A DNA stretch of 64,000 nt from Rhodospirillaceae bacterium (GTDB lineage Bacteria; Pseudomonadota; Alphaproteobacteria; Rhodospirillales; UBA2165), in the NCBI GenBank assembly GCA_947467145.1, contig CANIGJ010000006.1:62001-126000 (forward strand), written 5' to 3'. The position numbers and the translations under genes were made by a program. Shown piece after piece: positions 1,505 to 34,638 of this stretch (positions are counted from its first letter, which is position 1; the number at the start of each line of letters is the position of its first letter). The notes under the pieces are model-generated. The model was not told the DNA's origin. It was given only the letters and a program-made list of their open reading frames with translations, and did not search any database.

Positions 1505-1520
1505 CCACAAAATATAGTTG
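1505..1520. promoter_or_regulatory. NrdR-box-like site 1
   Basis: CCACAAAATATAGTTG matches 12 of 16 positions of the NrdR consensus ACACWATATWTWGTGT as I recall it. It lies 162 bases before the nrdJ start codon. NrdR is the usual repressor of ribonucleotide reductase genes in bacteria and commonly binds paired boxes. The nrdR gene is not in this window. Confidence 0.55.
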
Positions 1521-1560
1521 CCGATCCCCGACGATTGGGATTAACGTTTGTCCTCTGACC

Positions 1561-1576
1561 CCACCATATGTTGTGG
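1561..1576. promoter_or_regulatory. NrdR-box-like site 2
   Basis: CCACCATATGTTGTGG also matches 12 of 16 positions of the NrdR consensus and is flanked by an extra C/G pair that extends the dyad. It starts 56 bases after the first box, wider than the usual 31-32 base pairing distance. Together the two support NrdR control of nrdJ. Confidence 0.55.
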
Positions 1577-1681: not shown

Positions 1682-4600
1682 ATGCGTATCGCACGTCATT
1701 ACACCACCGCCGAAGCAGGTGCTTACGGCGCCATCGAATTCCGCGCCGTATCGAGCGAGATTCGTAACCCAGATGGGTCCGTGGTGTTCTCCCATGACCA
1801 GATCGACGTGCCGGCAGAATGGTCGCAGATCGCTTGCGATGTTCTGGCGCAGAAATATTTCCGCCTCACCGGCGTGCCGGTCCATTCCAAGAAGGTCGAG
1901 GAAGACGACGTTCCGGCCTGGTTGTGGCGCTCGATCCCCGATGCGGCCAAGCTCGACGCCCTGCCCGCCAAAGAGCGCTTCCGGGGCGAAACCTCGGCCA
2001 AGGAAGTCTTTCATCGCCTCGCCGGCACCTGGGCCTATTGGGGCTGGAAAGGCGGCTATTTCGATTCCGAGGCCGACGCAAAGGCCTATTACGACGAGAT
2101 GAGTTTCATGCTGGCGACGCAGACCTGCGCGCCCCACTCGCCGCAATGGTTCACCACTGGCCTGCATTGGGCCTACGGTATCGAAGGTGTCGCGCAAGAT
2201 CATCAGCACTACGTCGATTTCAAAACCGGCGCAGTGACGCGCTCGGAATCGGCCTGCGAGCATCCGCAACCTTACGCCGCCTTCATTCAATCGTGCTCCG
2301 ACGAAGTCGTGCGCGATGACAGCATCATGGACCTATGGGTCCGCGAAGCCCGCCTGTTCCGCTACGGCCTGGGCACCGGCTCCAACGTCTCCGCCCTGCT
2401 GGGCGAACACGAACCCATTCCCGGTGGCGGCATTTCGTCGGGCGCGATCAGCGCGCTGCGCATCGGCGATCACGCCGCGGGTGCCAACAACACGGGCCGC
2501 ATGACGCGCGGCGCGGCCAAGATGGTCGTGCTCGACGTCGACCATCCCGATGCCGAAGCCTTCGTGAACTGGAAAGTCCGCGAAGAACAAAAGGTCGCCG
2601 CCCTTGTTGCGGGCTCGCGCCTGTTCGAAAAACACGTCAACGCGATCATGGCGGCCGCCCATGCCGGCGTGAACGGGGGCAAATTCGATCCCAAGCAGAA
2701 CCTCGCCCTCAAACGCGAAGTCATTGCCGCGCGCAAATCGATGCTGCCGGAAAGCGCCATCCAAAAAGCCATCGACTTCGCCAAGCAGGGCTACACCGAC
2801 ATGAAGGTGGAGACCTACGACACCGACTGGGATTCGGAAGCTTATTTCACCGTGTCGGGCCAGAACTCCAAAACCTCGATCCGCGTCAGCGACGACTTCC
2901 TGAAAGCGGTGGCGGGCAACAGCGACTGGAACCTGATCCGCCGCACCGATCGCGCCGTGCACAAGACGATCAAGGCGCGCGAGTTGTGGGATCAGATCGG
3001 CGAAGCCGCCTGGTCCTGCGCCGATCCCGGCGTACAGTTCGACACCACGATCAACGATTGGAACACTTGCGCCGAGGCCGGCCGCATCAACGGCTCGACG
3101 CCGGCGTCGGAATACCTGTTCCTCGATAACACGGCCTGCAATCTCGCCTCGCTGAATCTGCGCACCTTCGAGCGCGCCAATGGCAGCTTCGACGTCGCCT
3201 CGTTCCAGCATGCGGCGCGACTCGCCACCATCACGCTAGAAATCTCCGTGCTGATGGCGCAGGCGCCGTCGGCCGAAATCGCCTTGGCGTCCTACACCTA
3301 CCGCCCGCTCGGCCTCGGCTATGCCAATCTCGGCGGCTTCTTGATGGCGCAAGGCCTTGGCTACGACAGCGACGAAGGACGTACGCTCTGCGCCGCGATC
3401 AGCGCGCTGATGAGCGGCGTCGCCTATCGCACCTCGGCCGAAATCGCCGAAGAGCATGGCCCCTTCCCCGGCTATGCGGCCAACAGCGCCAGCATGCTAC
3501 GCGTCATCCGTAATCATCGCCGAGCCGCCAACGGCGAGACCAAGGGTTACGAGAAACTTTCCGTCCTGCCGGTGCCGCTCGCCGACTCAGCCGATCCGAT
3601 TGCCGCCGAAATCATCGCGGCCGCGCGCGCATCCTGGGACGACGCGCTCGCCATGGGCACCGAACACGGCTACCGCAACGCACAGATCTCGGCGATTGCA
3701 CCCACGGGCACGATCGGTGCGATCCTCGATTGCGATACCGCCAGCATCGAACCCGACACCGCACTGGTGAAATACAAGAAGCTGTCGAACGGCGGCCATT
3801 TCAAGATCATCAACCGCACCGTCCCGGCTGCCTTAAAGCGCCTGGGCTACAGCGAAGAACAGATCGAAGCGATCGTCAAATACGCCGTCGGTCACGGCAC
3901 ACTCGACGGTTCACCCGCGATGAACCATGCCGATCTCAAGGCGCGCGGCTTCAACGGCGTCACCATCGCCAAGCTCGAAGCAGCCCTCGCCGACACTGCC
4001 GATATCAAATACGCCTTCAACAAATGGACGCTCGGCGCCGAATTCTGCACCAAGGTGCTGAACATCCCGGCCGAGAAGCTCGACGATATCGCCTTCGACA
4101 TGCTGAGCGCGCTCAACTTCTCCGACGAACAAGTGCGCGCCGCCAATGCCTATGTGCGCGGCGCCATGATGCTCGAAGGTGCGCCCGGCCTGAAGGCCGA
4201 GCATCTCGCCGTCTTCGATTGCGCCAACCCTTATGGTTATGCCGGCAAGCGCTCGCTCTCGTCCGACGCGCATATCCGCATGATGGCGGCCGCCCAGCCC
4301 TTCATCTCGGGCGGCATCTCCAAGACCCTCAACTTGGCGAATGCGGCGACGATGCAGGATTGCCGCGATGCCTACATGCTGTCGTGGCAGCTCGGCCTCA
4401 AGGCGAACGCCATCTATCGCGACGGCTCCAGACTGTCGCAGTCGCTGAACGCCGAAGTGTTGGACGACGAGGATGACACGCCCGCCGAACAGGTCGCAGC
4501 CGAGGCGCCCGCTGCAGCGACGAACGCACAGATTTTTGAGCGCATCATCGAGCGGACCGTGGCCAAGCGCACGCGTCTGCCGGAACGTCGCAAGGGTTAC

Positions 4601-5335
4601 ACCCAGAAGGCGACCGTGGGCGGTCACAAGGTCTATCTGCGGACCGGCGAATACGAGGACGGCCGCGTCGCCGAAATCTTCGTCGACATGCATAAGGAAG
4701 GCTCGGCCTTCCGCAGCCTGATGAATAATTTCGCCATCGCGATTTCCATCGCCCTGCAATATGGCGTGCCGCTGGAAGAATTCGTCGAGGCGTTCACCTT
4801 CACGCGCTTCGAGCCGGCCGGTCAGGTCGAAGGCAACGACTCCATCAAGATGGCAAGCTCGCTGCTCGATTACATCTTCCGCGAACTCGCGGTGTCCTAC
4901 CTCGCGCGCAACGATCTCGCGCACGTGCAGCCCGAAGATCTGGCGTACGATGCGATCGGCCGCGGCGAAGCCGACGGCGAGATCGAACCGGTGATCGCCA
5001 AGGCGGCGAGCAAAGGTTTCATCCGCGGGCGCAACAATCTGCTGGTCGTCAATGGCGGACGCAGCGGTCAGCCGATCAATCAAGCGGCCAATCAGGCCAC
5101 GGCAACCGTCGCGATGGCGAGCGCCGACGGCGGACTGGCACTACAGACGACAACGCAAGAAACCGTCGCGGTCAGCACGGATATCATTGCGGAAACGGAC
5201 GCACGGATGGACGAGATCCGCGAGGCCCGGATGAAGGGATACGAAGGTGACGCATGCGGCGAATGCGGCAACTTCACGCTGGTGCAGAACGGCACCAACA
5301 TGAAGTGCGTCACTTGTGGTTCAACGAGCGACTGA
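1682..5335 (+). CDS. nrdJ: Vitamin B12-dependent ribonucleotide reductase (class II)
   Basis: A 1217-residue adenosylcobalamin-dependent ribonucleotide reductase. It reduces ribonucleotides to deoxyribonucleotides without needing oxygen. Visible signatures are the redox Cys205 in [10 protein letters not shown], the active-site Cys486 in [11 protein letters not shown], and the IAPTGTIG and IEPDTALV segments of the barrel. The C-terminal tail has two CxxC pairs (Cys1192/1195 and Cys1209/1212), which look like the thiol-exchange tail or a zinc ribbon. Length fits the long proteobacterial NrdJ form. The ATG at 1682 has a GGGGG ribosome binding site 6-7 bases upstream. It appears monocistronic and probably NrdR-controlled. 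B12 dependence means the host must make or import cobalamin. Confidence 0.97.
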
Positions 5336-5345
5336 CCAATCGGTC

Positions 5346-5507
5346 GCCAAATGGGGTGTACGAACATATCGCTGTACCGTCTGACCTCGCTACGTATCGC
5401 GGGGCGACATTTCAGTTTACGAGTTCCTCCCTGGTGAAACTTGGGGGTGCGATACGGTAAAAGGGCCTGCCAGCCTACTTCGACCGAGCGCACCCCATTT
5501 TTTTGGC
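5346..5507 (+). ncRNA. Candidate structured RNA or attenuator after nrdJ
   Basis: No ORF explains this stretch, but it has nested long-range pairing. AAATGGGGTG (5349-5358) is the exact complement of CACCCCATTT (5491-5500), with GCC/GGC able to extend the stem past a T bulge. Inside it, CGTATCGC (5393-5400) pairs with GCGATACG (5449-5456). A competing helix is possible: GGGGTGCG (5444-5451) with CGCACCCC (5489-5496), directly followed by seven Ts. The first fold looks like a 6S-type rod with a central bubble. The second looks like a terminator with a 37-base loop. I cannot tell whether this is an independent RNA, the nrdJ terminator, or an attenuator for the next gene. Confidence 0.4.
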
Positions 5508-5593
5508 CATCGTTCGTGGCCGTCGACGCCAACCGACCGATCCTCTAATATCGCCCGATAATACCGCCTGATCGATTGCACAGGGATGTCGCC

Positions 5594-5974
5594 ATGCGAA
5601 TCCTGTTTCTGGTCGCGCTTTTGCTGTCCGTGAGTGCACGGCCATATGCCGCCGAGCCGCCCGGCCGCTATATCGGCAATTATTCCGCCAACCCATACGC
5701 CCCCAGGACCGAGCCACAGCCGCGCGGCACCTACACCAATCCCTACGGCGATAGTTCCAACTCTCCGCGCCTCTACGACAGCCAGGGGCAGCTCCGTGGC
5801 AATCTCAACACCAACCGCGCCGATCCCGACAGCGTCGCCAATCCCTATGGCCGCTACGGCAGCAAATATTCCGAAGACAGCATCAACAATCGCTACGGTG
5901 CCGGCAGCCGCTATAACGACGACAGCCCGAACAATCGCGCAGGCGATGGCCTCAGGATTTACCGGCCCGATTAA
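5594..5974 (+). CDS. Small exported Asn/Tyr/Gly-repeat protein
   Basis: 126 residues with a Sec signal peptide (MRILFLVALLLSVSARPYAA). The mature chain is polar and made of short repeats with NPYG, INNRYGAGSRY and NNRAG, ending in YRPD. Similar NPYGxY...INNPYGAGS repeats occur in small secreted proteobacterial proteins of unknown function. I assign no function. The ATG at 5594 is preferred because AGGGA lies about 7 bases upstream. A TTG at 5576 is in frame but would put charged residues before the signal peptide. The structured region 5346-5507 lies just upstream and may be its leader. Confidence 0.75.
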   Translation: MRILFLVALLLSVSARPYAAEPPGRYIGNYSANPYAPRTEPQPRGTYTNPYGDSSNSPRLYDSQGQLRGNLNTNRADPDSVANPYGRYGSKYSEDSINNRYGAGSRYNDDSPNNRAGDGLRIYRPD

Positions 5975-25536: not shown

Positions 25537-25543
25537 CAATCCG

Positions 25544-25592
25544 ATCGGGGACGACCCCGATTCATTCCTGACATATGCGGGGACGACCCTGC
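25544..25592 (+). promoter_or_regulatory. Guanidine-II (mini-ykkC) riboswitch
   Basis: Two short stem-loops, each with an ACGA loop, are seen just before sugE. The first is ATCGGGG-ACGA-CCCCGAT (25544-25561). The second is GCGGGG-ACGA-CCCTGC (25577-25592) with one G-U pair. Two GC-rich hairpins with ACGR tetraloops joined by a short linker are the defining features of mini-ykkC, which binds guanidinium and turns on guanidine exporters. It lies 22 bases before the sugE ATG, near the ribosome binding site CGGAG, so control is likely at translation. Confidence 0.88.
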
Positions 25593-34551: not shown

Positions 34552-34638
34552 TGGTGCGGACGAGAGGACTCGAACCTCCACCCCGTTTCCAGGACTACCA
34601 CCTCAAGGTAGCGCGTCTGCCAGTTCCGCCACGTCCGC
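34552..34638 (-). tRNA. tRNA-Leu (anticodon GAG)
   Basis: An 87-base tRNA on the minus strand. The acceptor arm GCGGACG pairs with CGTCCGC, followed by A and an encoded CCA. The anticodon stem CTACC/GGTAG encloses the loop TTGAGGT, giving anticodon GAG (Leu, CTC/CTT codons). The T-arm is GGGTTCGA-like with a long variable arm, as in type II tRNAs. Confidence 0.95.

Follow-up and report, generated by a model that had tools for sequence, protein, structure and literature searches.

Directly downstream of nrdJ, the gene for a class II (adenosylcobalamin-dependent) ribonucleotide reductase, the window (the whole 64,000-nucleotide stretch of DNA that was analysed) carries a short unit whose sequence, terminator pairs and position at the nrdJ 3' end are conserved and which matches no Rfam family above threshold. 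We consider it likely that this nrdJ 3'UTR encodes a putative anti-Shine-Dalgarno (aSD) sRNA of ~85 nt, presumably Hfq-dependent, pairing in trans with Shine-Dalgarno (SD) sequences. NrdJ ranks among the main sources of DNA precursors in many Alphaproteobacteria. If the proposal is true, a conserved sRNA on the nrdJ mRNA couples DNA-precursor supply to the translation of other genes.

The putative sRNA unit in the nrdJ 3'UTR

The features of the locus are as follows.

1506..1575, + strand: two putative NrdR-box-like sites, CACAAAATATAGTT and CACCATATGTTGTG, 5' of nrdJ
1682..5335, + strand: nrdJ (Pfam Ribonuc_red_2_N, Ribonuc_red_lgC)
5349..5358, + strand: long-range arm AAATGGGGTG, a potential competitor for the terminator 3' arm, in a 5' extension common to the sister genome only
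5420..5504, + strand: conserved sRNA unit of aSD hairpin, terminator hairpin and U7 (conservation, folding, covariance model)
5420..5443, + strand: 5' hairpin CGAGUU / AACUUG with aSD loop CCUCCCUGGUGA, the loop nearly invariant in 30 copies
5444..5504, + strand: terminator hairpin GGGGUGCG / CGCACCCC with inner stem CGGU / ACCG and CCUGCCAGCC at its apex, followed by A and U7 (both helices show compensatory changes)

The nrdJ mRNA is the presumed host of the candidate sRNA. The nrdJ stop codon lies at 5333-5335 and the next likely start codon at 5594, and the 258 nt between them (5336-5593) are non-coding, as the sequence-only reading had proposed for part of this gap. That reading had also drawn a rod-like unit of 162 nt; most of its structures are real, but its bounds are wrong, the conserved unit being 5420-5504. 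Its alternative 8-bp stem followed by T7 is present, with GGGGTGCG at 5444-5451 pairing with CGCACCCC at 5489-5496, then an A and T7 at 5498-5504. This stem and U-tract at the 3' end of the unit constitute an intrinsic terminator. The unit thus lies between the stop codon and the terminator of the gene, on the same strand, the position of a 3'UTR-derived sRNA. Folded alone, the core 5420-5504 gave z = -3.06, with none of 200 shuffles as stable, whereas the fold of the 180-nt whole was unremarkable (z = -1.51; equally stable in 15/200 shuffles). CUCCC in the loop of the 5' hairpin is predicted to be mostly unpaired, and the near-invariant loop thus exposes an SD-complementary motif, the feature of aSD sRNAs. 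A small ORF and then ridA follow the unit in the window.

Upstream of nrdJ, the two NrdR-box-like sites each differ from CACWATATATWGTG by 2 mismatches, and matches with at most 2 mismatches occurred in 3/300 shuffles; if real, these sites would tie the sRNA to dNTP supply. Elsewhere in the window, a Guanidine-II riboswitch (25543-25591, + strand, 47.5 bits) precedes an ORF resembling, by eye, a SugE/Gdx-type small multidrug transporter, and an ordinary tRNA gene with a long variable arm was identified at 34555-34638 (- strand, 51 bits).

Conservation and covariation

A DNA search of 60 relatives returned matches in 20, all in the family of the window and nearly all within 5422-5504. The named genomes with the exact loop pattern were uncultured proteobacterial assemblies, mostly Rhodospirillales. 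In total, 34 distinct copies of the unit were gathered for alignment, giving the consensus AGUUCCUCCCUGGUGAACUU-GGGGUGCG...CGCACCCCAUUUUUUU with a near-invariant loop and a variable middle. The string at the terminator apex (window 5460-5475) is a second strongly conserved element, found in the family of the window only and missing from the shorter elements elsewhere.

In the outer helix of the terminator, 97.1% of cells were paired and four pairs had changed on both sides; in the inner helix, both sides had changed in three pairs. RNAalifold performed poorly on the MAFFT alignment (A1), in which rows from the genus of the window were off by one base, and covariation was therefore run on a curated subset (A2) with the structure specified from single folds, a procedure that favours that structure. 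The covariation score was 0.136 against 0.086 in shuffles and was reached by 0/500 of them, although these shuffles ignore relatedness and the structure came from folds of some of the same sequences. Covariation therefore offers support rather than proof for the predicted pairs of the terminator and inner stems. Both stems were conserved among relatives, while the long closing stem of the sequence-only reading was not. The aSD hairpin showed no compensatory changes among the aligned copies because its sequence is nearly fixed, and covariation says little there.

A covariance model of the unit (R1) matched 22 of the 24 genomes of the family. In the two others, the contig ends just past the nrdJ stop codon (G011) or the 3' end of nrdJ was not found (G018). 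Family genomes carry one to four tandem units directly 3' of nrdJ, spaced 88-138 nt apart, and every copy in these arrays has its own loop and its own terminator. The claim of an undescribed structured RNA after nrdJ is supported, with sequence and pairs conserved and every Rfam family below threshold.

Association with nrdJ across the order and class

When NrdJ was searched by tblastn at the family loci, its C-terminus lay directly upstream of the element and in the same orientation in every case where the contig reached far enough; the exceptions were two weak matches elsewhere in the genome of the window and a second match in G016. An order-wide scan with R1 matched 71 of 317 genomes. Outside the family but within the order, 40 R1 matches had nrdJ coordinates at hand; of these, 38 (33 genomes) lay 23-157 nt past the last matched NrdJ codon on the same strand, mostly at 23-35 nt. 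In G024, which has two nrdJ genes, the element is located 3' of both. The consensus at the order level was UCCUCCCUGGGAAACUUGGGGCG with a shorter terminator, and several families of the order were without the element.

Beyond the order, we sampled 60 nrdJ downstream regions, nearly all from different families. CTCCCT occurred within 150 nt 3' of nrdJ in 20 of them; the controls gave 6 on the antisense strand, 1 in a distant region, and 3.1 among shuffles, which reached 8 at most. A stricter module, UCCUCCCU-N-ACU plus a terminator, followed nrdJ in 13 of the 60 genomes against 1 in antisense. Among the weak class-level R1 matches outside the order, seven were found just 3' of nrdJ (G336, G379, G412, G433, G490, G549 and G599), at least six others lay away from nrdJ, and the remainder had no assigned position. 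Further weak matches were observed at G243:C2:1946868-1946916, G244:C62:5590-5638 and G280:C65:6144-6198, those in G243 and G280 away from nrdJ; these may represent additional module hosts or copies of alpha-r8.

The pattern CTCCCT-N0-9-ACTT-N0-2-GGG had few sites per genome, about as many as its reversed control, and one of these sites was at nrdJ in most tested genomes, several of which had been chosen for having it. A generic terminator artefact was rejected, since a pattern present only a few times per genome is too rare for a general terminator feature.

Alternative explanations

The element could be a divergent true alpha-r8 gene (mmgR/suhB, RF00519) that stands at nrdJ by chance, is transcribed from a promoter of its own and acts as alpha-r8 is known to act. 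RF00519 is indeed the best Rfam match, at 21.9 bits here and up to 28.5 bits on class-level elements, and the layout of CUCCCU, ACUU and terminator is in common. These scores fall far under the gathering threshold of 41 bits. The alpha-r8 10-mer UUUCCUCCCU is matched at 9/10 positions (GUUCCUCCCU), in a loop rather than in a single strand, and speaks clearly neither for nor against membership. The weak 5' hairpin that precedes the 10-mer in alpha-r8 is mismatched in the alignment of the window, and in many relatives the motif begins only 11-32 nt past the nrdJ stop. The neighbours are nrdJ, the small ORF and ridA, with no FGase gene among them. Additionally, G032, G034, G040 and G050 each carry, at a different locus from the nrdJ element, an alpha-r8 that scores above the threshold. 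Membership in alpha-r8 was rejected on its score, missing 5' hairpin and missing FGase neighbour, and we regard this explanation as unlikely.

A still less probable explanation is a stability or termination element acting only in cis in the nrdJ 3'UTR, whose CUCCCU loop would bind an RNase or Hfq on the nrdJ mRNA. Position and terminator are consistent with it. In an hfq mutant of Sinorhizobium meliloti, NrdJ protein was far lower and the nrdJ transcript was down only 2-fold (PMC3484140), a hint of post-transcriptional control of nrdJ that suits a cis element; the strong Hfq dependence has stayed unexplained, and an nrdJ sRNA would bear on it as well. Termination, however, needs neither a near-invariant SD-complementary loop nor arrays, and the same core works in trans in SisA (PMC12559287).

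The sequence-only reading had suggested a possible attenuator, in which the arm AAATGGGGTG would prevent the terminator and so control the downstream genes. Its mutually exclusive pairings are real alternatives. The arm at 5349-5358 can form 10 bp with CACCCCATTT at 5491-5500, and with each fold enforced the MFE was -56.6 kcal/mol for the long-range fold and -57.9 kcal/mol for the terminator fold; at equilibrium the arm was paired at ~0.29 and the terminator at ~0.72. The arm keeps 7/10 pairs in one sister genome of the genus and was found in no other; in many family genomes there is no room for it because so few nucleotides separate the nrdJ stop from the core. It belongs to an 84-nt 5' extension (window 5336-5419) with its own hairpins, present in the sister genome G001 and missing in many family members; this extension is perhaps an additional copy that has decayed, perhaps a switch specific to the genus. 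Although ridA lies downstream in many family genomes, attenuation is very improbable, and was rejected for the family, because the element stays with upstream nrdJ while the downstream genes vary, the antiterminator arm is confined to the genus of the window, and tandem copies each carry a terminator. The likeness to 6S RNA was also not supported, with no match to 6S models even at E = 10, and no 6S, riboswitch or attenuator model matched the element (window searched at the gathering threshold, region at E up to 10).

Proposed function of the putative nrdJ-linked sRNA

For the trans-acting aSD sRNA, which we prefer, transcription of nrdJ would end at the sRNA's own terminator, and a 3' piece would be freed, with a cut 5' of the hairpin by an RNase E-type enzyme as the probable route. 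An internal promoter appears a less likely source; a weak promoter scan for the sRNA found none, and the space outside the coding region is small in the many genomes with 11-32 nt before the core. Hfq would presumably hold the sRNA by its U-tail, and the exposed loop UCCUCCCUGG would pair in trans with SD regions of the CCAGGGAGGA type in other mRNAs, whose translation would be repressed. The level of the sRNA would then follow nrdJ transcription. In relatives, duplication of the unit has produced arrays of two to four. We infer that the sRNA is freed from its host transcript, is bound by Hfq and represses mRNAs in trans by analogy with the characterised sRNAs SisA-D, CcsR1-4, SorX, SorY and NfeR1; the element may work like alpha-r8 (MmgR/SisA), SorY and CcsR. 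Several points count against this best explanation: the outcomes of the promoter scan and of the target comparison below, the aSD hairpin without compensatory changes, the families of the order without the element, and the terminator in every copy, which would limit read-through to the later copies of an array.

Perfect 9-nt loop complements upstream of start codons (CAGGGAGGA-N3-12-ATG) were collected from the family genomes, and 18 of the 54 ORFs, classed by eye, encoded periplasmic substrate-binding proteins; a control motif with one changed base gave 6 of 31 (p = 0.21), a difference that does not establish target specificity. In both genomes of the genus, a CAGGGAGGA site precedes a TRAP-type DctP gene and a TctC-type gene, and these genes are candidate targets, a lead and not a result. 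Complementarity to the ribosome-binding site of nrdJ itself (UCGGGGGAC) was weak by eye, which speaks little for autoregulation.

Comparison with known aSD sRNAs

Our full-text search of the literature on nrdJ and sRNAs found no description of such an RNA, and an earlier mention in older work on alpha-r8 or cuckoo RNAs is possible. The nrdJ-linked locus appears to be new, without certain priority, while the aSD type of sRNA is already known.

Two other loci of this kind were observed in the genome of the window. A second aSD hairpin (GUUCCUCCCUGUUGAAC) with a terminator is located in a DUF1127 3'UTR (L111:2042-2116, - strand; G000:C7:112341-112415), an arrangement like that of CcsR/CIN1. An alpha-r8-like element scoring 30.2 bits lies just 5' of a gamma-glutamyltranspeptidase gene (L110:2043-2124, - strand; G000:C32:37742-37823).

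The alpha-r8 RNAs (MmgR of Sinorhizobium, SisA-D of Caulobacter; RF00519) share with the nrdJ element the UUCCUCCCU core, a Rho-independent terminator preceded by ACUU, a similar length and the occurrence of sibling copies. They differ in having a weak 5' hairpin followed by a single-stranded 10-mer, their own promoters and, usually, a location by an FGase gene (PMC12559287), whereas the motif of the nrdJ element is in a hairpin loop. In SisA-D, the 10-mer core represses mRNAs with Hfq (PMC12559287). SorY of Rhodobacter (RF02651) also has the core, as CCUCCCUGUUGGACUUGGGCC, and a terminator, but possesses its own promoter and a longer 5' structure, and its model gave at most 30 bits on class-level elements against a cut-off of 111. 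SorY acts on the transporter mRNA takP (PMC6238624), and SorX and SorY limit transporters (PMC5036791, PMC6238624).

CcsR1-4, the cuckoo-type RNAs of the CIN1 locus, are likewise tandem homologous sRNAs with a terminator at the end, and they arise by processing of a DUF1127 mRNA in its 3'UTR (PMC10253847, PMC8625941). Their host is thus not nrdJ, and the likeness noted here concerns their arrangement. NfeR1 (alpha-r14) shares aSD motifs within hairpin loops and acts at the SD to repress mRNAs of transporters and of ntrBC (PMC10746234); it differs in its 123 nt, its three CCUCCUCCC hairpins, its independence of Hfq and its own promoter. Tentatively, an aSD sRNA in the nrdJ 3'UTR that tunes the translation of uptake and metabolic genes could be an ancestral alphaproteobacterial trait, with alpha-r8, SorY and CcsR as kin of one module spread among 3'UTRs, a possibility to which we give less than even weight. 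The nrdJ locus would offer a class-wide anchor for tracing the origin of the aSD sRNAs MmgR, SisA, SorY and CcsR.
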